Source of the DNA: Rhytidiadelphus loreus
Lineage: Eukaryota > Streptophyta > Bryopsida > Hypnales > Hylocomiaceae
DNA length: 64,000 nucleotides
Direction of reading: 5' to 3'
Assembly: GCA_947034895.1 (NCBI GenBank)
Contig: OX344764.1
Coordinates: 62,725,348 to 62,789,347 of the forward strand
The notes beneath the pieces are model-generated. The model did no database searches. It was not told the DNA's origin and worked only from the letters and a program-made list of their open reading frames with translations. Below are positions 3,001-59,434 of this stretch, in pieces. A program made the position numbers and the translations under genes. The first letter of the stretch is position 1; every line of letters starts with the position of its first letter.

Positions 3001-3075
3001 AAAGGGGATTCCAATACACCTAATATGAAAGCAAATTGATTAGGTTTCAAGACCCTCAATCCTAATCTCCAAAAT
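1..3075. other. AT-rich repeat DNA, no gene seen
   Basis: No convincing coding region is visible. The stretch is AT-rich with homopolymer and TA-rich low-complexity tracts, densest around 1360-1500. It contains two related degenerate segments (about 760-980 and 2530-2900). Each has a C-rich patch, a conserved ACAAACAATATGGGA block, a run of TATCCGTAT/TATTCATAT-like 6-mers and a G-run, which suggests two old copies of one dispersed element. The ORFs here are low-complexity translations. Confidence 0.6.
830..900. repeat. Degenerate GTATCN microsatellite
   Basis: A run of GTATCC/GTATCA/GTACCC/GTATTC hexamers lies just after an ACAAACAATATGGGA block. A related hexamer run occurs at about 2615-2775 after the same block, so the microsatellite probably belongs to a dispersed element rather than having arisen twice. 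Confidence 0.6.
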
Positions 3076-3655
3076 TTAACCCCTTAAGGTAGGAATACCA
3101 TAAATGGTTAAAATAAGCATTTTAACCTATAAGATATGGGAAATTCATTGAGAAATTCAGCTCAATGTATGCACAAACAAGGATGAGGAAGAATGAAACA
3201 AAATAAAAATAAAAATCTTCAAAAATGAATATTTTATTGAATATAAATGTGGATTTCTAATACAGACCCCATTCTTGTCTTATAGCTTCACCTAAAACAG
3301 TTTCCCTTGGAACTTGTTCTTAATAAAGTTTAAGCCAATCAAATTTCAGCAAATCAAATCTTTTCAAATCAACATAAAAGCTAGCTATTGTTGGTTTTAG
3401 AACACACTATTGTGCCATTTGGAGGGGGGGTGCCATTTATGGTATTCCTACCATAACACCTCAATCCTTTTTCAACTTTTGGCACATTTTTGCTACATCT
3501 TTGTACAGAAATATCATTTACCACAATTTCATGAAATTAGTCATTAAGGGAGGTCATCTTTTCAAGATTCAAATGTTAAATTGGATGAATGAGAAGTTAG
3601 TTGGACGAAATAGCGCCTGCAAGCCCTCTGTTCATCATCCAGCCTTAAGGGTTAA
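3076..3655. mobile_element. TTAA-bounded composite MITE-like element
   Basis: The stretch begins TTAACCCCTTAAGG at 3076 and ends CCTTAAGGGTTAA at 3643-3655. Inside it, 3088-3107 and 3433-3452 form a perfect 20-bp inverted repeat (GGTAGGAATACCATAAATGG), giving a roughly 380-bp inner unit. The right part, 3462-3655, is an inverted copy of the element at 6778-7006. It may be two nested or adjacent elements sharing one end. No transposase is encoded, so it would be nonautonomous. Confidence 0.6.
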
Positions 3656-4034
3656 TTCGTAAAAGACCTGTTACCGACACAAGATCAGAAGTTTAAAAGG
3701 ATTACATTATTATTATCAATACGTACTCATTGTGTAAGATTTTAGGAAGTCACTGTTGGGCAGTGCATTTATTGTTAGCTTCTCCCAAATCAAGTGTGTG
3801 CTTGGCCTCGCCTTACAAGAGATGTCAAAGTTATTCAATGAGAATGGAATGACGGCACTGGAGTTTCTCAGCATAGTCCAAGAGAATTTTTAGATGCTGG
3901 AGAATCAAGGCACTACTCCGCCAGATCACGAAACCCCGAGGGCATGAAGCCATAAACCAGAAGAAAACTCTAAACAAAATTCTGATATCCAATTTAGTAG
4001 CATCTGAGAACTGATCCCCATGCCTGGTTGTCTT

Positions 4035-7000
4035 CTAACTGGTGGTATTTTGGCCTTTCCAAGCTATTAACTGAAGAGCAGCCTCATGAAGACTTGCATT
4101 CCCAGCTGCAATCACTTCAATTCCAACTTCACCTACACAACAACAAAGCCAAGCCCCACTTAGGCCACCATTCCAAAGGAAGGACACCATTTGCGTACCT
4201 TGAAGCATTTTATCAAAATGAAGAGTGATTTTTGGGACATCACTGCAGATCAGTGGTGGGATCACTTCGGGAACAAGAGTCAAATCAGTTGAGGTCAGAT
4301 TTTTATCACTAAGTAATAAATTTTTATGCAACGATTTCAAAGTGGAAAGTTGTAGACCACTATTGAAGTAGACCACTCCATTTCCATTCAAAGATGAGTG
4401 GGCATAGACATTTAACCAAGTCATTCTTACACCACTTGGTAATAACTGTTGGTAAAAAAGGTCAGTATAGGAGACAGGATCAGGTCTGTAACGGTTTTGA
4501 TATCCTCAACCTTACATTACCTCCAGAAGAGATAATATACACTCCAAAAGTTGCAGCAAGGAGACCATTCTACACAGCAAGTTGAAGGTTGAGAAATGGT
4601 ACCGATTTCAGGCAACCAGCGAAGTTTCTGACCATCCCAGTTGGTAATTACACCTCCTGCTCCCTCCACCACTGGAACTAAAGCCAGATAATCGTATGGC
4701 TGTCACAGAGATCAATAGCAAACAGTAAATACAGATTCAATAATGGGAGGGAAGTACGTGATGGATCTCGCAGCTGAACGCAAAATTTTAGGGAACGCGA
4801 AAGGTTTACCTTCAGTCCAGACTCGACGACTAGATCAACGTGGCCGGCTGCCAACAGCCCATACGCATAGCAGTCACAGCCATACAGAGGTACCTTCACC
4901 TGAGAATTCAAACTTGTCAGCGTCTGATAGAATTCATTGGGCTAGGTAATGGCAATCAATCAAATTGTCATCCAAAAATTTGTCAGTTAGTAACTACTTT
5001 GCCAAGTGGCATTTTAAAACTACAGCCAAAATCTAATCCTTCCAAACTTATTTTGGGTACCAGATCTGCAAAATCCAACCATAGGAACTTGATTATCACC
5101 ATGTGTTTGTCCTGTACTCAAATTTTCACCCGCTGATTCTATGGGTACTAAAAGATTATGACTATTAAAGTCTTAGGCTTCAAAATGCAACACTGCAAGG
5201 TGACCTTGAGTAACGTTCGAGCGCTCAAATCTCATTGATTGCATATCTTCTAAATCAGCTACTGTGTTGGGTTAAAAGTGCAATTAAGACGGGCAAGCAT
5301 TATATGTTCTAATCCTCCTCTCAACCATGGAGACTCTGGCACACCAACTTCAAAAATCCGATTTGGCATTACGGGTGTCTTTAAAGTTTAGGCACTGCAA
5401 TGTATAAATGACTACAACTAAGCAAATAAGATTTCTTGAGCAAAGTAAGCAACGCTTATTACCTCATCTCGGACCCGAATGAAAGCTTTTTCCGCGTCTC
5501 CAGCGAATAGATGAGGGCTGGTTGTATACCTGGCTCCACAACAACAATGACTGTTCAAGTGAGTGAATGAAATTGATATCTGCAAGTGATTCATGAATGT
5601 ACTTGTGCATGTAAAAGATAATGGATGTCACGTATTGGATGCCACGTATTTCACAGAATGAAAAAACTAACCGAATAAAGGTTAAAGGATAGATGTCATG
5701 GTTCCAAGAAATATTTATACCATTGACTTGATGTATTACCATGCAAAACTAGTGACAAAGTTTCAGGTTAACCATTTCAATCACCAGAGTTCATATAGAA
5801 GAGTAAAGTGCATACAAATAAGAATCTTTGAGCAAAGCGGTATCACGTGTTTGAATCTCAACTCCATTCAATGTAGTAGCCCTGCCCTGAATTCCCAACC
5901 ACCGCTCCTTAAGCACTGGCTGATCAATGACGCCAAGCACCTGAAAATCACTAACAATCAAAATCAATTGAGGCAAAAGCATCTCAAGGGCAGACGATGT
6001 ACAGAATCAAAATCCTGCAGCTACAAGGAAATCCTCTAAGAGAAGATGACATCCTCTCTGTCCTTACAGACAACATGCTACTGAAAATTGAATCGAAACG
6101 AATAATCTCAACCACAAGAGTTTGGACCACCTTAACAACTTAACAATGAGTTCAAAACGGAAATTCTCAAGGGTGGACTTGTGAAACGAAAATTCTCGAG
6201 GGAGTAATTTATAACCTCAACGGCCACAGATAAGAGGCTATATGGGAGGTTAAGGATAAGTGAATCTTACTGGAACTCCTTTATGCATTAGAGCAATGAG
6301 TGTGCCAAAGACTGGCTTTCCTGTAGTTGAAACATATTCCAAGAAGTGAGTTGCAAAGGCAAATCCTTACCTACCTTGTTGCAAAATCAACACAGAGACA
6401 AAAATTTCATCTCAAAAAATTTGGCTCTTTTACGCAAAAATCTCACCACACCTCTATTCATCTCCGAAAATTCACCTTCATACATATCTTGAAGTGACGG
6501 AAAGAGTATCCTGTACCTTAATGCCGGAGAAGACAGTGTGCACATTCGAATCCCTTCGAGGGACTTACCAGTGATGAAGCTCTTGGTGCCGTCGATGGGG
6601 TCCAGCACCCAAACATAATCCGAACCTTCAACAGGAGTTGTCAATCCCCATTCCTCTCCATATCTGCATAAATCCTTCACTTTAGCGTACAAAACTGCTC
6701 CACTCGACCATTATGAATAGACTTTACAGGAAAATAGCTATGGCTACACCATTCATTCTATTGGGCGCCGTTCATGATTAACCCTTAAGCGCTCCGACGT
6801 CTATATTCTGGACGATGAACAGAGGGCTTCGAGGCGCTATTTTGTCCACGAAACTTTTCATTCATCGAGTGCAACATTTGAATTTTGGAAAGACAACCTT
6901 CCTTAATGATCAATTTCATGAAATTCCAGTAAATGATATTTCTGTTCAAAGATATAAGCAAAAATGTGCCAAAATTAGAAAAAGGATCAAGGCGTTAAGG

Positions 7001-25010: not shown

Positions 25011-28000
25011 TCAAAGTTGCCATTGTGGAGCATTCAATAGTTTCGGTCTTCTGCTACGCTGTTGCTCTCGTCTGAGCTTTTGCGCCTGCTTCTGCTCTTT
25101 CTGCAAAGTATCCCGAATCACTTCAAGCAATCCTTCCATTCCTTCTCCTTCCCTGCATTTGTTTAACATAGCAGAAAACTGAGAGTGGTATCAAAGTGCA
25201 ACAATTGCTGATTTTGAAACTCTATAAATTCTTTTCTCTGCTTTTGTACAGAATCCAACATCTGTCTGATTGTGTATATTAAATTCTTAGGACCAGCAGC
25301 TGGATGACCATCTGTAAAAAAGTTAAATGCCAGGATTCATTAAACCATTTCAGATCATGAAGCCTAAGATAGAGAGAAGAGCACTAAAAGGAGATCACAC
25401 CTTGCACTAATGCCAACAACAGCAGCTGGGCGACGAAAGTCTTGAACTCTCCGTTCTTCTTCTTTCTTTATCATTTGCTTGCGTTGTTCTTGCTTTGATA
25501 CAGCTTGTGAGCTACTATCTCTTTCTGCACTGTCTAATCTGGGCAGACGAGAACTGTCTGCATCGGCACTGCTCATCCCATCGCCATCAACTTCAGGATC
25601 GACTCCCATATTTTGAATCGTCTCCCTCAGACTTTCGAATTTCTGCCTGGCCTGAATTCAAATTTATGATAATGCAAGTAAGCAAAGGCCTTCAGAAGTT
25701 AAAAGATGCAAACCCCCAAATCGTCCCAGTGTCCATATTTTGTGAATTCACAATTCTGCGAGGTACGAAAAGAAGGTAGAGAGAGGAAGACTAATCACCT
25801 CCGGAAGATCAAGCTTGTTGAGAACGACAATATGAGGTCGTCTGACATATTCTGGATTGTAAAGATGAAGCTCCTGCAACAGAATAAACATAAAACCACA
25901 AACTATGTCACATTGTGCATGTTCAAAGGACTATAGTGGTCTTGCTTAAGACGCAATAACATTGAATAAGGCCACTATCACGTGCAGGTTCGATGAAACT
26001 CAGTCAAAGCGCAATGGATTTCCAAGAAAATTCTTCAGACCCTATTTTCTTTGTAACTTGCAACATGTTGAAGGTAAATACAACGCATTTTGATGCAAAG
26101 AACGGAAGCTCACCTCACGCAAAATACTGTAGTCATCCACTGGATCTGGAGTTGACGCGTCTACAACATGTATAAGCACTCTGGTTCTTCTTAAATGACG
26201 TAGAAACATCCTTCCTAGTCCCTATGCCCAAAGATGACAATTAACTCAGTGTCGATATCTAAAATGATAGTGTTCTTAAAATCCACACAATTTAGAGGTG
26301 GCGGTTACTAACGAGCTCATCTTCATGTACTAAAAAGATAACTGGCATGTCTGACAAACACTACGTCGTTGACAATTCTTCCCACACTTTGTTCCCCTTT
26401 GTTTCTGGATGAAATTATATCCAAAGCAATGATATTACAAGATCAGATTAGATAATGACTGTGGCAAGCTCGTCCCAGTACTACCTTGATTAGGAGAACC
26501 AGATCAAGATGAAGAGAACATAAATCACCTTCCCAAGATGAGCATCCTTAATGAGCCCAGGAAGGTCTGCCATTGTTGCTCCACTTGAAAATCCCCCATC
26601 GTTCTTCAGGGGATCACCCTCCAAGCACCCCAAGTTAGGCATGAGGGTCGTGAAGGGATATGAAGCGATCTCAGGCTTTGCAACCGTCACAGCTGCCAAT
26701 AGAGATGATTTTCCTGCATTCGGTAATCCCTGTGGAGCACACCAATTGTAAGGCCTTCCCCGGAGATCCCCATAATAAATACAATCCGCACTGACTACGC
26801 CATTTGCTGGAGAACAACAAAGCATGGAGTAGAAGCCATACCACAAGTCCAACATCTGCCACAACCCGTAGAGTCAACTCAAGTGCAATCTCCTCACCAG
26901 TACCTCCAAGAGTCACAACCTTCGATAACAACCAATTGCAGCTGCATCAGACTTGAGGGAAGGTAGTAGAGAGCGTAATTATGCTCGAGTAGGAAAAAAA
27001 AGCATGATATGTATCCGTAAAGCGCTGTGCAACCTAGCCCCTGAGCTGCTGATAAATGCTACATTATAAAGAAGCAACAGAGTTCAAGAATGTCTAAACC
27101 ACAGAGGATGTTGAATTTCAAAACGCACCTTGTCATCAGGATCCTGTATAGTTGGTAGGCCGTTATCCCTGAGACGCTTGCTATCTTTAGCTTCCACAAC
27201 ACATATCTGCAACAATATTCATTCCAAAAGATTAAATTTTCAATTCAACGATCATCCTAGCCCGTAAATGATAAGAGTCTCAGCGACCCTAAACCTCTCA
27301 ATATCAACTTTGAGAATAGGTACTGAAAGCACGAATCTGTCCAACGTAGTCCATAACAGTCAAGTCTAGTCATAGATAGTATCATCAAAATTCGATATGG
27401 CGACACCGCTATTGAATCGCAACAGTAAATCTTTCAGCATTGAGCTCGGGCAGGGAAAAATATCTTACTCCTCCACGACCACCTCGAGCAACCATAATTT
27501 CATCCCCATGCTTTGCAAGATCAGCTAAAAATTTCCCTCCTCTCTTTCTTTTCACCACTGTACCTGCATTTGTCACAAGGCATATGTTTTGAGTATCTAG
27601 ACCACATCAAGGAATATTTTCTCAATTAGCAGAAACGTAAAAGGTTGCGCGGACAGCCATACACATCTGCCACAATTCCTTCAAAAGACTTTGTCTACAA
27701 TAGTTAATCCCTAAATGCCGTGCAAGACATGCATGTCCCATTCATCACATGCATTCATCCAATAGGAAGCATCTTCGAAGGCAAATTAGGTGTTGCTAGA
27801 CTTGAAATTGAGCTGGCTCTCTAATGGTACTATTCGCAAGCTTAAGGCTTTAAGTTCATCTGTATGGATAACTTATCATCATGCTTAACATCTTGATATC
27901 AAAAAGATTCAAAAAAATTGTAGAGATGATATACTATAGCACAACGAAGTTTTCTGCAAAACCTGGTAGGAATTTGGGAGTAAGCCAAACAGTCTACATT

Positions 28001-29235
28001 CACAAGAAATGAGAGAGAGGCGCCTAATAATTTCAACACTGTAACTATAGTTAACTACAACAAACAGATAGATCAAATGTGCCATTGAAAGTCCATCGCA
28101 TGCTGCAATGTGGAAAGCCTTACCCACAGGAACAGGGATCCGAAGAACGGGACCATCTAGTCCATCTCGAAGAGACGGAGAAAGCGTCCCCATAGAACTA
28201 ACATTTGCACCCCTTTTCGCATTGTGACGTCGTTTCCGGTGATACGGCAACAACGTGTCCGCACTTTCTTCTGCCACAAGGACTACATCCCCACCGTGGC
28301 CTCCCAGAGGCAAAATCAAGGCGCCATCGTTGCCTCGCTTGTAAGTTCCAGCAGGTTTCTTATCCTTCTTCTTGAATCTAATCTCACCGTCGTCTACTTT
28401 CGGTTTCGGCAGCTTCAGAACTGCCCCATTGCCTCCATCGCCCGAGCGCACGGTAATAACTACCTGGTCGAAATACTTGTGCGGTTCCGTGTCTAGGTTC
28501 TTCGGCCCTTCTAACGCATTAGGGTTTTCTTTTGTGAGCGCACAATTGATTCGACTACTGCGTGCTACGGAGAGCCTCTGGTCACCTATCCACAAGCATC
28601 ACAAGCACAATGCATATGACAAGTAGTCTTGTGGCAATTCATGAGAAAAAACAATCCTAACAGCAACCAATCCTAACAGCGACATTTCTTCCGATTCCAC
28701 CTCTTGACTGACAATGTGAAGGAATGGTCCAAAAAAATAGATTAGCGAGGCAAGAGAATGATAACGCAAATCGTTTCGTGTATTCATCCAATTCTCCAAT
28801 AAAATATACGGATTTTCAAATTTGATATATTGAGAACCTAATGTTGACAATACTGTCTTTTCATTTATCATTCATAAAACACAAAATGCTTCGGCGTCCA
28901 TTGCTCGCCTCAAAAAACGCTTCTACTTCAATTCCATTCAACTTCTATTGATTACTCTGGAATGCTTACAACAGTTTTGGAGGCTATATTCTTCTTTCAA
29001 TGATAAATCTAGGTGCCGCATTTCAGCCGGTGTCTCTTTGAGGTGTATTTACCTTATGGCATTCTAAAGAGCAGAAAGAAAGTGAAGCTACAGTACCTTG
29101 CCAGAGATTCTGTTGTGGACATAGATTGAAAGCGAGAGAATGAGCGCAGAGCTGAGTGTACGTAGGCAACTTGCTCCTGCCACCTCGCGCAGCTACAACT
29201 GTGCTCGCACACGACGTACTCGCCAAAGCTTGCAT
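25011..29235 (-). CDS. OBGC: Plastid Obg-type GTPase (ObgC/CPSAR1-like)
   Basis: Large-ribosomal-subunit assembly GTPase. Plant ObgC acts in chloroplasts on 50S biogenesis and membranes. Ten exons give 542 aa: 29097-29235, 28124-28585, 27469-27563, 27129-27206, 26842-26919, 26529-26729, 26114-26221, 25799-25873, 25401-25651 and 25011-25152. The N-terminal roughly 65 residues are Ser/Ala/Arg-rich, like a transit peptide. The Gly-rich Obg fold follows ([32 protein letters not shown]). The G domain shows GLPNAGKS (about 285-292), DLPG (about 339) and NKLD (about 406-409), with VVGISAR serving as G5. A charged region of about 60 residues lies between NKLD and G5, and the C-terminus is basic and Gln-rich. 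The start is the first ATG after upstream in-frame non-ATG codons. An alternative donor two bases later at exon 9 could read into a different short tail near 25.3 kb. The mitochondrial paralogue ObgM is a less likely alternative. Confidence 0.92.
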
Positions 29236-34637: not shown

Positions 34638-37063
34638 TCATGTTCTAGCATTGGGAGGATTGAAACCAAGATATACCGCAATAAGAAGCAGCACCATCAA
34701 TAAGATTCTTCCGCCAGGTAGAAGCTCAGGATGGCGTTCTTGATCGGATCGAGGTTGCTGGTACCGGTACACCCAAGCCATGATCGGGGGCAGCACACCA
34801 AACAGAAAGCAATTTGCATAGACACCAGCAAAATCAAGTGCTGAGGCGAACACAGTTGGAGATGTCATGGCCACAGCTACTGGAGGAGCCATTGCCAGCA
34901 ATAGAGCTGTCATTTTCCTCGAGTGGCTCAGTTCCTCTGTAACTAAAACGCTCTCTTCTGCATGTGGGTGGATACCAAACAAGCTTACAGTATCGATCAA
35001 CTGCTTTGGAAAGCTCAAGGCATACCCGATGAGTGTTGTACCTAAAGCAGCAAATGCAAAAGCTTGAACCACAGGAGCTGCTGTACTACTCAAGGAAAGG
35101 AGGAGTTTGATGGGGTCAAATGAAGCCACAGCAGATTCTGCCCGAGACTGTGCTAGGCCTACGATGACGGCATTCCAAGCTAAAACCATCAACAAAGGAA
35201 CAGCTCCCCCACACAGTATAGCTTTGCGAGCTTCCTGTGGTCTTCCTCCCACCACTTGGCACACCACAGGCGTGATCACATGGAACCCCAAGGTGAGAAC
35301 AATTACTGGAATTGCAGGAGACAATGCAGTGAAGGACCAAGTGCTCGAGCCTATGGATCCGAGCCAAAAATCTCTTCCCACGGAAACACCGATGCCGACC
35401 AGACCTGTGATTGATGCAATCATAAGACCGCACAGAGCTCGATTCAGGATATCCACAGCTTGAAAGGAGGTAAATGCCAACATGAAGGCAACTACCCCTG
35501 GGCTCAGTATGCAAACCAAAGCCGGATGTAAAGGTAACCAATGTGCCAAAATCGAATGAAGCCCTGCCACACAGGCCACCAGCAGAGCGTAATTGAGGAA
35601 AGCGTAAACAAGAGCAACAACACGCCCTGCAGAGTGCCCAAGAGTGCGCACTGCCAAGCCAGTGAAGCTCACTTCCGCCACTCCCTGCTCTGCCATCACT
35701 GTCAAACGTGGCACAAGTAAAGGAAGGCGAGTAAGTAGTTGGAGAATCTCTACACGCTGTAAGAGGTTGTGGAGATAGGCATCAATCTAGTTCGACCATT
35801 CCTTTTATATTATCCCAGCAATTGGGATCTAATAGGGACGCTTCCAGGAAATAACCTTAAGAGCACAATAAGACACATCAATTCACACACTACATACAGT
35901 GGGGTTCACAATTGAGAGACTAGATGCTGCCTCGCTGCACATCTGCTTAACAACTCTCAACGAAGACGAGACTTACCGGCATAACTCAGCTCTGCTACTA
36001 ACAATATAGAAGCCATGACATACGCCCACACAAAAACGATCGTTACAGTTGATGGGATTAGACCAGCGTGCAAAGTGGCAGCAGGAAGTCCAAGTATGCC
36101 AGGTCCAACAGCAGTGCCTACAATGATTGACAGCAATGGTGGTCGTAACACAACGTCAGACCCAAATCACACTCTCACCACTTTAGGGCCAATTTAAATC
36201 ACCCAAATATTACTGATGTAAAACACGAAAGATGTCCCTCCATAATTCTACACGTCACAAGCGCAAGTATCGTCACCATAACCAAGATTCACTGTCAACA
36301 ACGTAGTGTGCCAGATATAATTGTAGTAGAGTAGGGTGTGCGCGATTCAACTGCCGAGCATACATGAAGAGAAAACTCAAAAGATGAAACGCAGGGACTG
36401 GGAAGAAAAACTAAATACCCATGATAAGTCCAACCACAGAAGCCAAACTCCCGCTCTTTTCGGTATCTGATGAGCATTCAGAGCTGAAAATGTCAATTCG
36501 TAAAAAACATAAACAATTAACACGACGAATGTCACACTGGTAATGACACACTTGCAAATCTGCTAAACTGACAAACTGTAGATTGCATATCTCTCCATAT
36601 ATGAAATTGGAATGCATATCGACATGCAGAACACTTGCCTTGTACCAATGTTGTGAAAGCAATTCAGAAATTGAAAAAATAAAAATAGAACAAAAGACAT
36701 AGGTTTTATATCACTGCCAGTATGTTTGTTACCTGTCTGTGACAAGTACGGCAACTCAACGAAAGAAGCCTCATCGTTCCAGGGCTCAGAATGAATTTGT
36801 GCATAACATGTCATTCCAGTGTTCACGTTCTCCTTGTGTAGAAAAGTTCCATCAATGTAACCATGCGACAATAATCGAGAATTGTCTGTGACAACTGAAC
36901 TTTGACAACGATTTCGCAGGACCATTGGCACTACACCACATCCAACACTCTGCGCACAATACACTCTGCTCTGAGAGTCTTCAACGGTCTTGGCAATGTC
37001 ATACCTCCTTTGACTTCGTTTTGGTGATGTAAACGATGACTGTAGCCCAGGGCTCAGCGCCAT
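34638..37063 (-). CDS. Tyrosine/tryptophan permease-like transporter
   Basis: Multi-pass membrane protein of the aromatic amino-acid permease (Trp_Tyr_perm) family, close to the plant tyrosine-transporter-like proteins. The substrate in plants is not established from sequence. Four exons give 526 aa: 36733-37063, 36419-36466, 35977-36117 and 34638-35698. A hydrophilic N-terminus of about 110 residues, with Arg/Ser-rich content, could be an organellar targeting region. The conserved GTAVGPGILGLPAAT opens the first membrane segment, and roughly ten more hydrophobic segments follow, including LTLGFHVITPVVCQVVGG, LIGYALSFPKQLIDT and ALDFAGVYANCFLFGVLPP. The exon 2 acceptor was chosen by phase (ATCAG before 36466); a nearer TTTTCAG is out of phase with exon 1. 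The start is the first ATG (37063), because the codon upstream is GTG. Confidence 0.9.
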
Positions 37064-38492: not shown

Positions 38493-41400
38493 ATGGCGAA
38501 TTCCAAGCATCTTTTGAATCGAATTCGTTCTCCACTTTCTTTGCTTTGTCGAAGAGACTGTGGTATTGCATTGCATGGCCGATCAGACCATGTTTCTCAG
38601 GTTGCATGAATTTGGCGGAAGGTGCTCTTGGCTAGGGTTTTGGCTTGAACCTCCTGGGAAGAGGCTTTGAATAACAGAATATTGAGGAGTGAGGGTTCTC
38701 ACAAATGTTTGTAGGCAGGGGTCCATGGTATTGTCGCGGGCCTGAAACCATTTCGAGTGGGGAACAGGATTCCGCAGATCGTAGATTTGAGGACTTCCAC
38801 TTCTGTTGTCGCTGAGGAGATGTTTGGATTCTAAAAATCGACTTATGAGACTCCATCAACAAAGAAGTACTGGTATCTTGCACGTGACTCCTGAACAAGA
38901 TTTTCAAAACCCTAAAATACCATTGCGAAGTGCAAATGCAGCATTCAACCTCCAATTGTGATCCTGAGGTTGGGTCGTGAGGCTGACGCATGTGGTGTCT
39001 CGCCATCTCCTCTTGCTGCACCAGATTTTCTTGTCCCCTCGATGAGTCTCCACTCCTAGGTAAACCTTCTCAAAGGGACCAAGAAACTTTAGAGTATAAT
39101 TCCTCACATATGATCCTTCTCTTCAACAAAGTCAGAATCTGAAGCTGTTTGCATACATTGAGAGTGTGGTCTTTCCACCTGCGTGGAGGTTTGCTCGATT
39201 AGGGTTTAGCGATTCGGAGGGAAGCACGGACATAGTGGGAAGGTGACTGAAAATTCAAAGAGAACGATTCTTTGTCTAGATTGAAGTCAAGGTTGCATTG
39301 GCTGTGTTCATATGGAGCTTCTCTTACTGAAGTTAGGGTTTAGGGTTTAGCACTCTGAAGATGAGAACGACACAGTTGAAAAGGTAGCTCAAGATCCGGC
39401 AGAGATTGATTCATGTTAGGGTAGAGCAGACGCATTGGCAAGGGAGCAGTTAATTCGAAGAGATGAATCTTACATGATGCTTTGTGTCTAGGTTGAAGTC
39501 AAGTTTTAGTCAAGTTTTTCTGAGCTATAGATATTGGACTTGTTCATGTGGAGGTGTTGTGGTTTAAAGTTTCTTGCTGTTCATAAGTTGGTTTATTTAG
39601 TAGAATTTTGTATCGGTATAATTTGTAGTAAATGTTGCAGCGTTCTTACTACCTATAGAAGAGTGTTAAGGACTAGAGGAACCTTAATGACTGATACTTT
39701 CACACATGTAACTCTCCCGGCCAAAGTCAAGCTTTTAGCCAAGTTTTCGGGAGCTGAATACATTAGAAGTTGTTCATATGCACGTCGAGCTGTCGTTGTT
39801 GTGTCTTCCTCGCTGCTTGGAGGCCAGAGAGGTTAAGGTCTAGCAGTGTGGAGAATCGGACAGGCGGAGTTGAAAGGGAGCAGAGGACCCGAAGAGAGAG
39901 TATCTGTGTTATGTTTTGTTTTTGACTGAAGCTTAGTATTAAGGCTCATACATTGGTAATTGTTGATGTAGAGAACTGCTGAGGGTGTTTTTCTCTCCAA
40001 ACTGAGGGTTTATTCCGAGGGTATTCCACCAAACGGGAAGAGAACATAATTATATATTTGAAGGGGATTGGAAGACTTGAAGAGATGGATTCATACATGA
40101 AACTTTGGTGTATGGACTGAAGTGAAGTTCTAGTCAATTTTTTGGAAGCTTCATACATATGAAGTTAGTCATGCTGAAGACAAAGAAAGAGCTATACAAA
40201 ACAGACAAGGAACAGACGACAATTGAACAGACTTAAAGCTAGTGACAATAATACATGATACTTGTGTCAATGCTGAAGTCGAGTTTTGTAGCTTTTTGTA
40301 TACATTGGGCGTTTCCGATGTTGAGGTTGGGGTTCATGAAGCAAACAAGAAAGGTTTCTCTTCTGCCTGGAGGTTGAGCAATATGGTGAAAGAACAAACT
40401 TAGTTGAAAGGAGCAGATCGAGACTTTTATACTGTATCAACTTTTACTCAAGGTCTCAGACACTGCATACAATTAGACAAGGAGCTTTCCTTAACAGACC
40501 AAGAACATTGACGTGAAAGGGAACCAAGACGCGTAGAGATTCGTTCATATACTTTTTGGAAATAAGAAGTTAGATTCCTGCTTCTGGTGTTACTTTGCTT
40601 TTGCAGAGGAATCGTGTGAAGTAGAATTCGAGCCACAAAACGTTTATATTCATGTTCCTTTTATTGCGTCATAGGCAACAAACGAGGAGCTATTTGGTGC
40701 CTGAAGCTGGTGCACGGGTGAGTAATCGTTCATTTATGGCCATACACCTATTAATCGTACGTGGTTGGTAGATTAAGACGTGTGTCAACTGAACCACTGT
40801 GGTCATGTTAGCAACATATGTGTCCGATATATGTAGATATTCCCCTATTTGATAAATTGAGGGATATTTGATAAATAGGATGTTATGTTTTCCCAAAATT
40901 GACAGGACATGAACTTGGTTTGGTTGGACGTTAAACATTAAATAGTAGTACTGATGAATATTCTACTCTCAAATCTATGCTGCTTCCAATGTGTTTTTTG
41001 ACGCATTGCTGGGGATTCGTGTGACCAGGGTTCCTGTGTGCTCACACTTTTGAAGTCTCGATGGCTTATACATCCTTCTTTATTATTAGTCTCGTCCTCC
41101 CATGGAGAAAGAAGCAGCGGAGAAATTAGGTTTTCATCGTCATCTGTTTGGAGGAAACCATCTGTGAGTACCAATGCTTCAGGTATGTCTCGGATGCCCA
41201 TCCGCATGGCAAGAAATGGGTGTTGCCTGTCTCCCTCAGAAAGAATGTCTGACATTTTGAAGTACGTTCCAGTTGAATCAGGTGAAGCACAGACAATTGA
41301 ACAAGTTTGGGAGGAGTATTTTGCGGATCCTTTGCAATGGTGGGACAAAAGAGTTTACAAGGTATCTCTAGGACTATCAATTGGACTACTGGTTGATGTT

Positions 41401-41777
41401 AGAAAGTCGTGAACAAGCAATGAGGATGGTTATAAATCGCTTCTACAAGGCCATGGGCGCATTGGGAAACAATAAGCATAGTGCATTCTCTATGTGTTTT
41501 GGAGTGGATTGAAGACTTATTAGATCATTCTAATGTTTAACAACTTCAAAATATTGATCAGTGTTCCATATTTGATCATGAGTTGTGGTGCATATAGATG
41601 AATCCCAAATCACCTGACTTTAAACACAAGGTGACAAAGAAAGCACTTTGGGTAGATGGCTGGTCAACTCCACCACGGGTGAAGGCGATGCTCAAATTGG
41701 TGACTCAAAGCAAATTACCTTCTCATGTTGGTTATCAAACCAATGATTCTCAAGAGATTGTAAAACCAAATAGGTAA
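38493..41777 (+). CDS. PDF-motif (OSB-type) organellar protein, possible 5' part of the PPR gene
   Basis: Exons 38493-38600, 41029-41361 and 41598-41777 give 206 aa. The first exon encodes a strong mitochondrial-type presequence (MANSKHLLNRIRSPLSLLCR). Residues of exons 2-3 carry a PDF motif, the C-terminal module of plant organellar single-stranded-DNA-binding (OSB) proteins: VWEEYFADPLQWWDKR, then NPKSPDFKHK and ALWVDGW. No OB-fold (SSB) domain is visible before it, which is odd for an OSB protein. The second and third exons are well supported by the split motif. Exon 1 is chosen by phase and targeting character over a 2.4-kb intron, and its donor is weak (GTTGCA). The ORF can stop at TAA 41775-41777. 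It can also be spliced at AG|GTAAGC (41773/41774) into the downstream PPR ORF in frame. Confidence 0.65.
38900..40400. repeat. Decayed tandem array, about 200-bp units
   Basis: About six degenerate units, recognisable by a TGAAGTCAAG(T) core followed by TTTTAG.CAAGTTTT, GAAGCT and TTCATATG, with cores near 39282, 39492, 39724, 39928, 40118 and 40275. It lies in the inferred first intron of the PDF gene. Spacing ranges from about 160 to 230 bp and divergence is high. Confidence 0.55.
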
Positions 41778-42220
41778 GCATGAGTTGTCTCCCTTTGTGA
41801 CAGAAGTAGGTGCACATAACGTAGCTATAGGTGAAACTTTCATATTAAAGGTGGACTTCAAACTTGCACTGTGTAATATTTTTGTTACGTGCAGCATGAA
41901 ACTTGTGATTTGGGTTGGCGTGAGGATTTGGTTTGTGTAACAGTTGTTTGTGTATTTGCTTTATGTTGGTCACTTTGTGAGTGTTTATTAGGTGCATTAA
42001 AAGTGTAATTCATTTTTGAGAAATATTTTGCATTTAAGAGATATTGTTGCATCTAAGGATGTGCAAATTGATTGAGTAAAAGTTTCCCATGTCTCAAAAG
42101 TTGTTCTCATGAAGAATGTATTGATGAGCCAGGTTACCGAAGGGCAATTTTGGAAGAAGAAACACTTTGCCCACTAGTGCAAGAGAGTCAAAGCAAAATG
42201 CTCAAGTTGGCGGTGGCAAA

Positions 42221-44935
42221 ATGCGCATGCAAAATGCAAGAAACAGTGAAGCAATTGATGTTTTGAAGAACCGACTACAACAAGGCATTGCTATGAGCCC
42301 GTACATGTATGTTGAAGTTCTGAAGCGGTGCTTGAAGCACGAAGACCTTTCAGCAGTCAAGCAAGTTCATGAGTGCATCATTCTAAGTGGAATACAACAG
42401 AATACACATCTGGCAAACAACCTACTGAGTGCCTACATCAGATGTGGGACATTGGAAGATGCATGCCGAGTGTTTGATGAACTTGTGGAGAAGGACTTAT
42501 TTAGTTGGACTAAAATGATCGGAGGTTATGCTCAGCACAGTCGCGCAAAAGATGCGATGGAAGTATTCAATCAAATGCTCCAAGAAGGTGTGCAGCCAGA
42601 TGCGGTTACTTACTTGAGCATCCTGAAGGCATGTGCCAGCCCGTCAGCTTTAGAATGGGGCGAAAAAATTCATGCATATATCAGAGATGGTAGCCTTGAG
42701 TCAGATGTGCGTGTAGGGACTGCGCTCCTTAAAATGTATGCCAAGTGTGGGCGCATAAAGGAGGCAAGGAAAACTTTTGATAAGTTGGCCAGTCGTAATG
42801 TCATTTCCTGGACTGTGATGATTGGAGCATATGCTGAAAGTGGGTGTGGTGAGGAGGCATATCGATTGTTTCTCCAAATGAAACGGGAAGGCTTAAAACC
42901 AGATGCTTTTACATATGCGAGTATTTTGAATGCATGTGCAAGCTCAGGGGCGTTGGAGTGGGTGAAGGAGGTTCACAGCCATGCTCGTGAAGAAGGATTT
43001 GAGTCAGATGTGCGTGTGGGCAATGCTCTAGTCCACATGTATTCAAAGTGTGGCAGCATCGATGATGCCAGACTGGTTTTTGGCAGAATGAAGCACCGCG
43101 ATGTAAGGACATGGACTGTGATGATTGGAGGGCTTGCACAACATGGGTGTGAGCGTGAAGCATATGAACTTATTCTCCGAATGAAACGGGGAGGTTTAAA
43201 ACCAGATGCATTTATATATGCGAGTATCCTGAATGCATGTGCAAGCGCCGGGGCCCTGGAGTGGGTGAAGGAGGTTCACAGCCATGCTCGTGAAGATGGA
43301 TTTGAGTCAGATGTACGTGTGGGCAATGCGCTAGTCCACATGTATGCGAAGTGTGGCAGTATCGATGATGCGCGACTAGTTTTTGACAGAATGGAGGAAC
43401 GGGATGTAATTACATGGAACGTGATGATTGGCGCATATGCTGAAAGTGGGTGCGGTGAGGAAGCATATCGATTGTTTCTTCAGTTGATACGGGAAGGCTT
43501 TAAACCAGACGCAGTCACATATATGAGCATACTGAAAGCCTGTGCAAACACAGGGGCTTTGGAGTGGGTGAAGGAGATTCACAGCCATTCCCGTGATGGG
43601 GGATTTGAGTCAGATGTGCGTGTGGGCAATGCGCTGGTCCACATGTATGCGAAGTGTGGCAGTATCGATGATGCCAAACTGGTTTTTGACAGAATGGAGG
43701 AACGGGACTTGATTTCATGGACTGTGATGATCGGCGCATATGCTGAATGTGGCAGTGGTGAGGAAGCGTATCGATTGTTTCTCCAATTGATTCGAGATGG
43801 TTTCAAGCCAAATGCAGTCACTTATATGAGCATCCTGAATGCATGTGCAAGCGCAGGGGCTTTGGATTGGGTGAAGGAGGTGCACAGCCATGCTTGGGAA
43901 GGGGGGTTTGAGTCGGATTTGCGGGTGGGCAATGCGCTGGTCCACATGTATGCAAAGTGTGGCAGCATCGATGATGCCAGACTGGTTTTTAACAGAATGA
44001 AGCAACGCGATGTAAGGACATGGACTGTGATGATTGGGGGACTTGCGCAACATGGATGTGGGTCTGAAGCTCTAGAACTCTTCAGGAAAATGAATGCAGA
44101 CGGTGTGAAGCCTGATGGTTACTCATTTGTGGCAGTGCTATCGGCCTGTAGTCATGCAGGCCTTGTTGACGAAGGCCGTCAACTCTTCCTAGCTATGTCG
44201 CAAGATTATGGCATCGTCCCCAATGTGCTGCATTGGAACTGCATGGTGGATATTCTTGGGCGGGCAGGCCACCTGGAGGAAGCAAAGCTCTTCATTGATA
44301 ATATGTCAGTTGAACCAGATGGAGCTACTTGGGGAGCCTTGCTCAGTGCTTGTAGATCTTATGGGAATGTGGAGTTGGGTGAACTTGCGGCTAAAGAGCG
44401 TGTCAAGTTGGAACCCAAGGATGCCTCGACGTACGTGCTCCTCTCCAACATCTATGCTGCAGAGGAGAAGTGGGAGGAGGTATCATTGGTGCGCTCTATG
44501 ATGCAGGAGAGAGGTGTACGCAAGGAACCGGGGCGTAGCTGGATTGAAGTGGATAACAAGATTCATACCTTTGTTGGAGGGGATACATCTCACCCGGAAT
44601 CAGAGGAGATATATGCGGAGCTGAGCAGATTGACTGAGAAAATCAAGGCTGAAGGCTACCTTCCAGATACCCGGCTTGTGTTGCATGATATTGACGAGAA
44701 GGATAAAGAATTTTCTGTTTGCTCTCATAGTGAGAAGTTGGCTATTGCGTACGGACTTATTTGCACTCGTAGTAGTAAACCTGTTCGTGTTTACAAGAAC
44801 CTCCGGGTGTGTTCAGATTGTCATACAGCAATCAAATTGATGTGCAAAGTGACTAGAAAAGAGATTGTGGTGAGAGATGCAAATCGCTTTCATCACTTCA
44901 AAGATGGCTTGTGTTCTTGTAAAGATTACTGGTGA
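42221..44935 (+). CDS. PLS-type pentatricopeptide repeat protein with E and DYW domains
   Basis: Organellar C-to-U RNA-editing factor class. The uninterrupted ORF gives 904 aa from the first ATG (42221). An N-terminal region of about 60 aa is followed by P, L and S PPR motifs (about 60-690), E motifs, the PG box (PGRSWIEVDNKIHTF, about 770) and a complete DYW deaminase domain. That domain shows HSEKLA (catalytic His-x-Glu), CSDCH zinc ligands and terminal CSCKDYW. Five successive PLS triplets are almost identical at exactly 303-bp spacing. By the PPR code (5th/last residues), the S motifs are mostly N/D (U) and the P motifs mostly T/D (G). The predicted pattern, with L motifs left open, is U G n A G n U G n U U n U A n U G. 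The ATG-initiated protein has no evident targeting peptide. The frame stays open upstream to 42128, with an acceptor at 42132, which suggests an upstream 5' exon. Confidence 0.93.
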   Translation: MRMQNARNSEAIDVLKNRLQQGIAMSPYMYVEVLKRCLKHEDLSAVKQVHECIILSGIQQNTHLANNLLSAYIRCGTLEDACRVFDELVEKDLFSWTKMIGGYAQHSRAKDAMEVFNQMLQEGVQPDAVTYLSILKACASPSALEWGEKIHAYIRDGSLESDVRVGTALLKMYAKCGRIKEARKTFDKLASRNVISWTVMIGAYAESGCGEEAYRLFLQMKREGLKPDAFTYASILNACASSGALEWVKEVHSHAREEGFESDVRVGNALVHMYSKCGSIDDARLVFGRMKHRDVRTWTVMIGGLAQHGCEREAYELILRMKRGGLKPDAFIYASILNACASAGALEWVKEVHSHAREDGFESDVRVGNALVHMYAKCGSIDDARLVFDRMEERDVITWNVMIGAYAESGCGEEAYRLFLQLIREGFKPDAVTYMSILKACANTGALEWVKEIHSHSRDGGFESDVRVGNALVHMYAKCGSIDDAKLVFDRMEERDLISWTVMIGAYAECGSGEEAYRLFLQLIRDGFKPNAVTYMSILNACASAGALDWVKEVHSHAWEGGFESDLRVGNALVHMYAKCGSIDDARLVFNRMKQRDVRTWTVMIGGLAQHGCGSEALELFRKMNADGVKPDGYSFVAVLSACSHAGLVDEGRQLFLAMSQDYGIVPNVLHWNCMVDILGRAGHLEEAKLFIDNMSVEPDGATWGALLSACRSYGNVELGELAAKERVKLEPKDASTYVLLSNIYAAEEKWEEVSLVRSMMQERGVRKEPGRSWIEVDNKIHTFVGGDTSHPESEEIYAELSRLTEKIKAEGYLPDTRLVLHDIDEKDKEFSVCSHSEKLAIAYGLICTRSSKPVRVYKNLRVCSDCHTAIKLMCKVTRKEIVVRDANRFHHFKDGLCSCKDYW
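42650..44164 (+). repeat. Five 303-bp tandem coding repeats in the PPR gene
   Basis: The block beginning TTGGAGTGGGTGAAGGAG recurs at 42953, 43256, 43559 and 43862. A more diverged first copy lies at 42650 (TTAGAATGGGG). Spacing is exactly 303 bp, one PLS triplet (101 aa). The copies are highly similar at nucleotide level. Confidence 0.95.
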
Positions 44936-55652: not shown

Positions 55653-56750
55653 TCAGTCATCGTCCACAGCATGCTCCTCGAGATCCCGATGAAACTCCTC
55701 GTCCGACCTGACATGTCCGCAGAAATTGCATTCCATGGATCCTTCCAGTCTTTGCGCATCCAGTTCACCTGGAGGCAAGGGCGCCATGGTCCCCCCGCAC
55801 TCTTCCACAGGACACAAATACTTCACAAAGAACATGGCATGGCCGAAGTCGTCCTCTTCCTCCTCCCCTACATCCTCCTTCACTTCACTACTCTCCAATT
55901 CAAGCTCCTCCTCACTTTCGTCATCTTTCCACTCGGACTCTACCTTACACCTCGCACACTTGCACCAGAATCCATACTCTTCCTGGAGCTTCTTCTGCCT
56001 GTCGCCGTAAGCCCAGTCGACGGGGAAGTAGCTCAAGCACACCTCAGTGCCTTCCTCGATATCGTGGAGAGCACGCACAATGACGTCGGTGTTGCCATCT
56101 CTATCACGATCCACATACTCAAACCTACAAGCGTTTGGGAGGCAATCGTGGTTGAACATTGAAGCCTGCGCATACATCGCGTAGCCACGAACTTTTCTTT
56201 CTTCTCCGGGTTTTGAAGGAGCCATAAGTCCGAATGTATTGCAAGCATCGCGTGCTAAGAAATCCCCCGTCCTCTTTAACGTTGGCTCCACATCCGATGG
56301 GAGAGTCTCAGCAACAAACGCGTGGAGCTTCTTCACGACGTCCTCATCTTGTTCCTGACCTTCTAACTCCAGCAACTTCGCAATCAGTTTCCAATCTAAG
56401 TTGTACGCCGTGATCAAGAACCGTGCTAGGGTTCGCTCCTCCAAAGAGAAATCGTGGTGCTCCTTTTTCAAAGCGCTGATTCCATTGCAAGTCCGAGAAT
56501 TATGGCTACCAGAGTCTAGGCAGGAACTGCTACAGAAAGTGGCTGCGTTGCAAGCAGAGCATGAAACGATCTGGCGATGGGACAGTAAGCGGAGACAGTG
56601 GCTGCAAAAAGAAGTGCTCTCTGCAGCTTCTGCCTCCTCGTAGAGCAAGAGAGGCGATTCTCGTAACAGAACCTCACCTGCTCGCAATCCTCGCGTGGCT
56701 ATCAAGCCTCGACCCCGCCCGGCGATCGTCTCCTGCCGCAGCAGCGCCAT
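55653..56750 (-). CDS. ASHR2: SET-MYND (SMYD-like) protein methyltransferase, ASHR2-like
   Basis: Putative protein-lysine methyltransferase using S-adenosylmethionine. Closest recognised plant relative is ASHR2/SDG39. Its substrate is unknown from sequence. Single exon, 365 aa. The split SET domain begins GRGRGLIATRGLRAGEVL (about 11-28) and is interrupted by a MYND zinc finger (about 49-90: CSHC, CSAC, CSSSC and a final Cys). SET core motifs follow: MFNHDCLPNACRFEYV (NHxCxPN) and EEGTEVCLSYF. The post-SET cysteines are CKCARC. A strongly acidic Glu/Asp-rich insertion (about 273-303) precedes a second Cys-rich pair set (CPVEEC...CNFC) at the C-terminus. The start is the ATG at 56750; the frame stays open further upstream (to 57320) without any similarity. 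It is divergent from DDAH. Confidence 0.9.
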   Translation of the reverse strand: MALLRQETIAGRGRGLIATRGLRAGEVLLRESPLLLYEEAEAAESTSFCSHCLRLLSHRQIVSCSACNAATFCSSSCLDSGSHNSRTCNGISALKKEHHDFSLEERTLARFLITAYNLDWKLIAKLLELEGQEQDEDVVKKLHAFVAETLPSDVEPTLKRTGDFLARDACNTFGLMAPSKPGEERKVRGYAMYAQASMFNHDCLPNACRFEYVDRDRDGNTDVIVRALHDIEEGTEVCLSYFPVDWAYGDRQKKLQEEYGFWCKCARCKVESEWKDDESEEELELESSEVKEDVGEEEEDDFGHAMFFVKYLCPVEECGGTMAPLPPGELDAQRLEGSMECNFCGHVRSDEEFHRDLEEHAVDDD

Positions 56751-57143
56751 GGCCCGCACTCGAACAAAGCGCAAGAGCAACCCCCTAAAACCCAGCTTTA
56801 ACCCTAGTACCCTATATGGATGAAAGCCTCTGTTGGCCTTCAAGAAGATATCAATGTTTCTGCAGGTTTTGACCGACAGTTGCTCGCTTCTTTCCCCTGC
56901 TGTTTCGATTGTGTGCAGGCCGGCATTGCCGATACTTGATCTGAAGTTAAAGAGGGATTGTCTCGAGTTGGGATTTTGCCCTGGAGTTGGAGCAGGGTTT
57001 TGAATTGTGGTGTGAGAGTGGCTAGGGTGGGCCTGGTTTGAGGGTTTTCGGTGATGAGCTTGATGGGAAACGTTGAATGCTGAGAGTGTTTTTGATTTAG
57101 CGGGTGTTTGATTGTTGTGTTGGTTCTCATTGGCGGAAGGGCG
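56751..57143. promoter_or_regulatory. Bidirectional promoter, ASHR2-like / DDAH
   Basis: 393 bp lie between divergent start codons. The region is open in several frames by chance. A short TAGGGTT box occurs at about 56803. No TATA box was assigned. Confidence 0.5.
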
Positions 57144-59434
57144 ATGTCTGAGCTTGCTGCCATGGCATCGAGGATTGCGATTGTCCGTGGTGTGCCGAAT
57201 TCCTTCTGCGACGCACTGTCTCTGACGCCACCACCGCAGCCTGTGAACCTCGACAGAACGCGTTTGCAACATCAGGCATACGTAAACGTTCTGAAAGGTA
57301 CCGCCCTCAAGAGTCTTCAATTTCAGTGGTTCTTTTTTCGGTTAAAAGTCACCAGATTTTGACAAATTCTTTGGTCTGGCCATAAGAAATTTAAGCAGGA
57401 AAATGCAAATATTTTGCCAAATTGTACAGAGAAAGTTCCTTGAAAGTTTCTTGAAAATATCTTGTAAATTGCCAGAAATTGTACCAAGTAGTGAAAATAT
57501 TATGCAATATCGCCAAAATTGGTAGCCTCAACTAAATTCTGTAGCCACCCCAGCGAAAACAGGAAACGAATCAAAAGTTTTAAAAATGTTGTCTTCATCA
57601 TTGTGCAGAATTGGTGCAGAAGGTGATTGAGGTGCCGGCTGATGACAAGTATCCTGACTGCCCTTTCATTGAAGACACGGCGGTGGTGATTGGAAACAGG
57701 GCTTTCATCACGCATCCAGTAAGCCATCTTCATTGAATTTGTTGATTTGTGCTGGGGGCGGAGATTGATGTTGTTGCAGGGAAGCTAACTGAATCATAAT
57801 TGGGGAACTGTAGTTCCAGTCGTACGCTTCTGAGTGAAGTGTTGAAACCATTTTCTGTGTTGCTCCCTAGGCAGTGTATACTCTTTCTGTCGCTTTATCG
57901 AATATGCGGGAGTGTGACTTGGGGGAGATCATATAGAACTGTGGAGAGATCGCCTTTGGGCACAAAAGGCAAATTCTTTTTTGATCAAATTTCTACCATT
58001 ATGTACGAATTTCTTATGTAATTATTCTCAGTGGGAGGTTGTAGAGCACTAGTTAAGGGATAGAAGATAGCCCCATTTCCATTCAAAGAGCTGTGGCGAT
58101 AGGAAATTAGCTAAGTCGTGCTTACACCCACCTCTCTATTTGTAGGCCAACTGAATGTATGAATTTTGCCTTACTTCACAATTCTTTCACCTGGTAACAT
58201 TCTTTAGAAGAACACTGTTGCAAGCTTTCAAAGTCTAAAAGAACACTCTGATATTGCCTTCATTTCCACTGCTCATTCTGAGGCTTAAATTCTTACAACC
58301 CGTTGTTTGTGGACAGGGAGCAGCTTCTCGACAAGGGGAGGAGGTGGCCATTCGGGAGGCTTTGCAGCAGTTGGGAATCGACATCTCCGATGTGGAATCC
58401 GCTGGCACAATCGATGGTGGTGATGTGTTGTATGCTTCGGGCATGCTCTTTGCGGGCAAGAGCAGGTTAGACAAGGACTTGTGATTGTGAACCTTTTTGC
58501 ACTTAATTCCTGTTCATCATATGCCATTTCAGAAAAACTGAGCATGCCATGTTTCTTGACCTGGGGAACCTAGTGTGCTTGTTTGGTTCCTCTTGCGCTG
58601 CCAGGAGCTTGAGATTACTTATCCTCTTGAACCGAGTTTCTCTTCAGAAACTCTGAACCTATCACCAAAGGTCCTCTGATGCGCTCATTCCTTGACCTGT
58701 AATTGCAGCCGAACAGATGCAGCAGGAATTGATTCTTTGCAAAAGGCTTTTCCAGATGTGAAAGTGCACACCATCCCAGTTGTCGAGGGGCTACATCTTA
58801 AGTCAGGTAAGACCATCCTTCTTGATGTCAGTCCTTTTCATGTAGACATATCTCATGCTCTAATGGGACACTCTCTTGCACAATTAGGAGGCAAGTGCAA
58901 AACAGGTCTTTTGGGGAGTTTAAGTAATATGCATATCCATGGACTCTACTGCAAGTTTGAAGAGTATTCACAGAGTATCCTAGAAGTTTGTACTTCAAAT
59001 TGCATATAATTTTTACACCCAAAGAGTAGTTAAACAATCTTTCTTCACACCGTTTTGCAGATCGCTCGAGTGTCCCCGAGTTTCTCTTTCTCATATCCTT
59101 GTCTTTTGTTTTTGTGTGATGTACAATTCCAGTGATTAGCATGATTGCGCCACAAACTCTATCTGTTGAAGACAGCGTTGCTGCAATGGCCATGTTTGAT
59201 GAGATCCAACAAAAGACCGGCGGCCACTTCACGATGGTGAAAACCAAGGGACCAGGAGCAGCGAACACACTACTGGTGGGCGACACTGTGGTATGCTCTG
59301 CAACGCTTGGACTTGGGGCAGACCTGAAAGTTCATTATGAGCAGCATGCTGAACATGTCATTCCCGTGGACATCTCAGAGTTCCACAAGATGGATGGTGG
59401 CCTCACTTGCCTTTCTTTACTCATTGAAAGATGA
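57144..59434 (+). CDS. Dimethylarginine dimethylaminohydrolase (DDAH) family
   Basis: Hydrolase of the amidinotransferase/DDAH fold that, in characterised members, converts methylated arginines to citrulline and methylamines. Five exons give 270 aa with all phases closing: 57144-57297, 57609-57718, 58317-58465, 58709-58806 and 59133-59434. Residues match the catalytic layout: FIEDTAVV (about 71-78, acidic substrate-binding residues), DGGDVL in exon 3, GLHLKS with the general-base His about 167, and GGLTCLSLLI with nucleophile Cys about 263. No targeting peptide is evident, so it is probably cytosolic. It is divergent from the SET-MYND gene. Intron 2 carries a sequence resembling one in HISN7 intron 8. 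Peptidylarginine or arginine deiminase is less likely given length and motifs. Confidence 0.92.

Follow-up and report, generated by a model that had tools for sequence, protein, structure and literature searches.

Examination of the window, namely, the whole 64,000-nucleotide stretch of the Rhytidiadelphus loreus genome considered here (contig OX344764.1 of assembly GCA_947034895.1), revealed what is very probably a five-exon nuclear gene encoding an organelle-targeted PDF-PPR-DYW protein, belonging to a family that would have arisen by the joining of OSB-derived PDF exons to a PLS-DYW gene, with duplication following. The assembly amounts to 407 Mb in 489 contigs, five of which measure 51-94 Mb. 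In the plant editing factors known to us, a PPR tract carries catalytic parts at its C-terminus; a nucleic-acid-binding module at the N-terminus, derived from an organellar DNA-maintenance protein, would, as far as could be found, represent a new editing-factor architecture. No description of a PDF motif fused to PPR repeats was found in the openly licensed literature, most subscription papers lying beyond the scope of that search.

Gene Structure and Predicted Protein

A preliminary description of this region had proposed that an exon encoding an OSB-type PDF motif is spliced to a downstream PPR reading frame. Both halves of the motif were found, with WWDKR in 41282-41361 and NPKSPDFKHK from 41598, as were the donor AG|GTAAGC at 41773/41774, the TAA at 41775 and the acceptor GATGAGCCAG ending at 42132; the 41773/42133 junction closes the phase exactly. 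When exons A-E (Table 1) are joined, they remain in phase and yield a protein of 1092 aa without interruption (1095 aa if the acceptor before 41273 is used), not the 1139 aa earlier proposed. The order within this protein is presequence, OSB-type PDF motif, PLS repeats, E/E+ and DYW.

Table 1. Exons, splice sites and domains of the predicted PDF-PPR-DYW gene in the window.
Feature	Position	Strand	Description
Exon A	40652..40717	+	Start codon and predicted presequence MFLLLRHRQQTRSYLVPEAGAR; 4 Arg and 1 acidic residue among 22 residues
Exon A donor	40717 (end)	+	CGG|GTGAGT, phase 0
Exon B	41029..41182	+	Continuation of the N-terminal region; rich in Ser, without known domains
Exon B boundaries		+	Acceptor ACCAG|G; donor TTCAG|GTATGT, phase 1
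Exon C	41282..41361	+	First half of the PDF motif (WWDKR; EAQTIEQVWEEYFADPLQWWDKRVYK)
Exon C, alternative acceptor	41273 (start)	+	Adds VES; corresponds to the form of Ceratodon P0001
Exon D	41598..41773	+	Second half of the PDF motif (MNPKSPDFKHK...); donor AATAG|GTAAGC, phase 2
Exon E	42133..44935	+	Acceptor GAGCCAG|G; encodes the PLS-class PPR repeats, E, E+ and the DYW deaminase
P1-L1-S1 triplets	42497..44012	+	Five full triplets of 101 aa each, inside exon E; 101-residue spacing, Pfam PPR
E motif (PF20431) and E+ motif (PF20430)	44360..44644	+	Pfam
DYW deaminase domain (PF14432)	44654..44932	+	Pfam E=1.8e-39; terminal DYW

The PPR-DYW frame is open and intact over 42128-44935. P1-L1-S1 repeats are present, with E, E+ and DYW following in order at the C-terminus, above the Pfam cut-off. 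The translation of the DYW domain presents HSE, CSDC and a terminal DYW, the former two matching HxE and CxxC, which we take to be the residues of the deaminase zinc site. The PDF exon was matched by no Pfam model.

The position of the presequence had to be revised. This had been placed at 38493, yet among the 28 paralog loci fetched (L009-L036, taken from the approximately 48 listed; together with the window gene, a sample of 29), that stretch aligns in just five. In L034, the ATG is present and the frame is open, with 18 of the 20 codons that differ among the first 35 being nonsynonymous. No ATG is found in L009 or L025, and in L023 and L033 the alignment begins behind the ATG. Given how few paralogs align, the mostly nonsynonymous codon changes in L034 and the absence of the ATG in L009 and L025, a presequence at 38493 is considered unsupported. 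By contrast, the 22-codon leader at 40652-40717 was detected in 26 of the 29 loci, as two main sequence types, using a search pattern that itself demanded a GT donor; two of the three loci missed by the pattern, L011 and L034, nevertheless show the leader.

Related Proteins in Ceratodon purpureus

Proteins carrying both a PDF motif and a DYW domain were sought outside Rhytidiadelphus loreus, and annotated Ceratodon purpureus proteins were found. The PDF portion of the joined window protein served as query against 5.8 billion proteins, with E values of up to 10 being considered. Two proteins were obtained among 4 candidates, both from Ceratodon. A second query, from another subfamily, returned two among 8 candidates, namely, P0002 once more and a third Ceratodon protein. 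The search requires shared five-residue words, such that the lack of a match elsewhere, P. patens included, does not amount to absence.

The three proteins, P0001 (1122 aa), P0003 (1074 aa) and P0002 (696 aa), are database-annotated models (M758_8G001900, M758_3G008300 and KC19_6G098400) that contain both PDF and PPR portions, and two of them also contain DYW, like the window protein. The model that does not, P0002, is KC19_6G098400. The three are named solely as hypothetical, PPR or DYW proteins, and their PDF portions are 59-83% identical to those of the two queries used. P0001 crosses all four junctions with the order unchanged, and includes an N-terminal segment related to the exon A leader as well as the exon B segment. 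When compared to the window protein, its PDF is 83% identical and its PPR-DYW portion (exon E) 77% identical over 935 aa. Structure prediction of P0001 using a three-row alignment gave helical repeats with pLDDT mostly of 70-90; the PDF part was mostly predicted at pLDDT <50 and the DYW end was likewise unusable.

In a midpoint-rooted tree based on the last 300 residues, P0001 falls inside the clade of the window protein (support 0.975), beside the L010-L032 group (0.80), while P0003 pairs with L024 (0.993). These placements suggest that the PDF-PPR-DYW fusion was probably established before the two mosses diverged, with more than one lineage in existence by then.

Family Size and Predicted Function

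The window PPR ORF matched at least 92 stretches of the genome (from the best 49 of 384 candidates). PF14432 gave 94 matches that were merged into 92 DYW loci, some of them fragments, and PDF exon D gave at least 150 matches (the best 150 of 160 candidates), merged into 148. With the limit for linkage set at 8 kb, 73 of the 92 DYW loci presented a same-strand PDF exon D 1.9-5.6 kb upstream, as judged from those best 150 of 160 candidates. As a control, pairs in the wrong orientation were counted. These numbered 3 and were explained by neighbouring genes of opposite orientation, two reflecting a head-to-head gene pair and the third a PDF that lies on the other strand from the DYW at C4:73910, some 8.5 kb upstream, and probably belongs to that gene. 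The other 19 DYW loci, L027 and L030 among them, are without a PDF among the matches listed.

The PDF-linked loci are not evenly placed. Fourteen of the 73 lie no more than 500 kb from a chromosome end, where 0.92 would be expected if placement were independent, and chaining of loci at <1 Mb delineated 15 clusters. Two near-identical loci, L025 (C2:77729907-77733014, minus strand) and L009 (C2:77744968-77747772, plus strand), lie in opposite orientation approximately 12 kb apart and are the result of a recent duplication; their open frames differ in length, at 1037 and 936 aa, respectively.

In proteins of this type, the leader serves in import, the PLS tract reads RNA and the DYW domain deaminates C. 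In the window protein, the presequence would direct entry into mitochondria (or plastids), the PLS repeats would choose the RNA site via the PPR code and the DYW domain would deaminate C to U, with the PDF motif providing an extra grip on single-stranded nucleic acid that may keep the editor close to nucleoids or to transcripts still being made. In OSB1, the PDF motif is reported to be sufficient for binding single-stranded DNA (PMC6963530), and OSB1 and OSB2 are reported to prefer single-stranded DNA over double-stranded DNA or RNA (PMC4166229), which favours a grip of the PDF on DNA rather than on RNA. We infer that the family consists of organellar C-to-U editing factors to which a nucleic-acid-binding module has been added. 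Such an arrangement would offer a natural design for raising the affinity of programmable PPR editors, and the size of the family allows for testing why a moss needs dozens of extra deaminases.

PLS-class DYW editing factors, such as the ten of P. patens, share with this family PLS repeats, E, E+, DYW and an N-terminal presequence, yet in the latter a PDF motif lies between presequence and repeats and four exons precede the PPR exon. The two also differ in number, with P. patens being reported to possess ten DYW genes, alongside 13 editing sites (PMC9459714), as compared to the 73 PDF-linked DYW loci among the matches listed for Rhytidiadelphus loreus. This excess, together with the clusters and the placement at chromosome ends, would be in line with a fast-turnover set that targets changing organellar RNAs and is less concerned with housekeeping editing, much like restorer-of-fertility-like PPR proteins, which also form a large, clustered and duplicated family. 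Variability within the repeats offers further encouragement for such an assignment, in that position 5 of L1 ranks second most variable among the 101 repeat positions (73 units from 19 proteins). The other positions considered rank lower, at 25th (P1.35), 27th (S1.5), 39th (P1.5), 57th (S1.31) and 77th (L1.35). In 13 of 18 aligned loci, PPR code columns show a pN of 0.211 versus 0.147 elsewhere (permutation p=0.018). In those 13 loci, however, pN/pS at code positions equals that elsewhere (0.33 vs 0.35), so that a change of target is plausible and positive selection is not demonstrated. Restorer-of-fertility-like PPR proteins are, furthermore, generally of the P class, unlike the present family with its PLS repeats, E, E+ and DYW. 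In one account, the restorer candidates of the PLS class number only two and are unproven (PMC7380019). Membership in a fast-turnover, restorer-like set thus seems possible but doubtful.

A more elaborate version of events would have the PDF motif tether the DYW deaminase to single-stranded DNA or R-loops in the organelle, with the family editing nascent RNA co-transcriptionally or even deaminating single-stranded DNA, and the duplicating members forming an organellar surveillance system. This proposal strikes us as improbable. Were it true, PDF-DYW surveillance in this moss would be directed against selfish sequences of the organelle or against transcripts that change.

Origin of the PDF Exons

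OSB proteins are described as organellar single-stranded DNA-binding proteins containing an OB-fold and one to three PDF motifs of approximately 50 aa (PMC4166229). The window PDF aligns with the PDF exon of the one recognisable canonical OSB gene in the genome, where SSB exons at C2:32394138 and C2:32394723 are followed by a PDF match at C2:32395663. The two differ in that the window family has the PDF motif fused to PPR-DYW and no SSB-domain match: Pfam detected no SSB-like OB-fold in the exon B-C frame or in exon D, and none of the 12 matches to PF00436 in the genome lies at a DYW locus. Full-length, single-frame SSB genes were also noted on the low-ranking contigs C147, C174, C199 and C400, which suggests bacterial contamination of the assembly.

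The intron within the PDF motif was compared over 176 bases around the OSB PDF, the upstream half of the motif falling outside them. Just upstream of the exon, the OSB PDF frame encounters a stop, and the acceptor must therefore lie between that stop and PKSPDF. If TTTTGCAG serves as acceptor, then the exon begins two codons before PKSPDF in phase 0, which is the pattern seen with exon D; another AG is found 5 bases beyond TTTTGCAG. As read from these splice signals, the canonical OSB gene has its PDF intron at the same place as do the PPR genes. By contrast, the PDF motifs not linked to DYW match the joined PDF contiguously, that is, intron-free (best 150 of 246 candidates, the OSB gene not being among them). 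Contiguous PDFs are also seen at L043, L044 and L045, which are linked to neither DYW nor copia; L043 contains a frame break and L045 a stop. With the intron position being common to OSB and PPR genes and the other PDFs among the matches listed being contiguous, an OSB gene is the likely source, and the PPR-linked PDF most likely arose from it at the DNA level, by exon shuffling. The PDF exons of an OSB gene, intron included, would have been joined to a PLS-DYW PPR gene, with duplication, in particular near chromosome ends and in clusters, coming after the fusion. This would represent a traceable instance of exon shuffling between organellar DNA maintenance and RNA editing.

PDF-bearing Ty1/copia elements, described below, would be the other conceivable donor, given how the four closest contiguous PDFs among the matches listed (65% identity) are copia-linked. 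Since the PDFs of copia elements, like the other non-DYW PDFs among the matches listed, are without an intron, whereas the OSB exon has one where the PPR genes do, transfer from copia is thought quite unlikely.

Splice Junctions and Selection on the PDF Exons

When a uniform splice model was applied, 21 of the 29 loci, including the window, presented a single frame from exon B to the end. Once exon ends were corrected, L018, L023, L031 and L034 likewise continued in frame from the PDF into the PPR part at the family junctions, meaning that PDF and PPR share one frame across GT-AG introns in 25 of the 29 loci (near-duplicates L025 and L029 counted). Judged across the sampled paralogs, this retention of PDF-to-PPR junctions is far beyond chance. 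Intron lengths vary (C-D, 194-281 nt; D-E, 251-436 nt), with the exons staying in frame. Among the 21 open loci, the exon B donor of L012 is without its GT through loss. In L033, the modelled exon C acceptor has lost its AG and an upstream TTCCAG is kept, which would yield the form seen in Ceratodon.

The PDF is, however, not always kept, as seen in four loci. L022 is broken, and in L024 the frame runs into a stop within exon D when the family junctions are used, being open solely via another donor. In L027 and L030, the PDF is deleted and exon B is joined directly to exon E, with the frame still open. The latter two loci are found at C1:67.79-67.89 Mb. The neighbouring PDF-less DYW loci at C1:67897407 and C1:67924830 may be the same PDF-deletion derivative.

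Selection was considered in 18 of the 29 loci, L012, L018, L022, L023, L024, L027, L030, L031 and L034 being left out, together with the duplicates L025 and L029. The median dN/dS was 0.41 for the PDF exons and 0.26 for PPR-DYW, with all 153 pairs falling below 1 in each case; for exon B, the median was 0.55, with 93% of 143 pairs being below 1. By these ratios, the PDF exons are under purifying selection, and this selection is weaker than that acting on PPR-DYW. The higher ratio of the PDF, along with its absence from L027 and L030 and its disruption in L022 and L024, is what could be expected were the PDF exons a decayed OSB fragment riding upstream of duplicated PPR genes. This seems most improbable, considering that no pair among the 153 from 18 loci reaches 1, that frame and splice sites are kept in 25 of 29 loci and that the PDF is conserved in Ceratodon.

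Although a TAA lies directly behind the donor in the window and the PPR ORF contains internal ATGs, the competing reading of two genes, one for a small PDF protein that terminates at TAA 41775 and the other an independently started PPR-DYW gene, is rejected as the least probable of all, because paralogs retain the AG|GT donor and the AG|G acceptor but not the adjacent stop, with read-through past exon D ending at differing places, and because the Ceratodon proteins continue through the junction. The original proposal of a single PDF-PPR-DYW gene thus stands: the splice sites and phases of the paralogs, the purifying selection on the PDF and the Ceratodon proteins that read across the junctions all support the window containing one predicted spliced gene.

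Antisense PDF Reading Frames in Ty1/copia Elements and Other Observations

In a Ty1/copia lineage, an ORF encoding a PDF motif was observed in antisense orientation directly behind RNase H. Among the matches listed, 58 of the 75 non-DYW PDFs adjoin a Ty1/copia pol at its RNase H end, in tail-to-tail arrangement. Considering RNase H matches (best 76 of 150), 58 of the 64 showing at least 49% identity have such a PDF, as do 0 of the next 12. In L042, a frame running from gag (assigned by eye) to RNase H spans 3-3869 on the plus strand, with three stops, and the PDF ORF spans 3862-4323 on the minus strand, such that the two overlap by a few bases. PDF-bearing copia copies were also noted at L037-L041. 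Comparison of five PDF copies with one another, L044 and four linked to copia, gave a pS of 0.58-0.93 and a pN of 0.24-0.36; on these values, the copia-type PDF looks constrained, as expected of a kept protein. A protein search with the copia PDF ORF returned one short metagenome protein only, and no report of a PDF motif in copia was found in the openly licensed literature. In Retand gypsy elements, antisense ORFs with predicted DNA-binding domains are described between pol and the 3' LTR (PMC11963269).

Elsewhere in the window, long ORFs on the minus strand at 55653-57341, 34638-35786 and 27909-28598 resemble, by eye, a SET/MYND-type protein, an amino-acid permease and an Obg-type GTPase, respectively. 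Finally, the other copia matches are concentrated narrowly on four of the five large contigs, at approximately 48.1-48.35 Mb of C1, 53.2-53.3 Mb of C2, 42.81-42.84 Mb of C3 and 48.8-48.96 Mb of C4, a distribution like that of a centromere marker.
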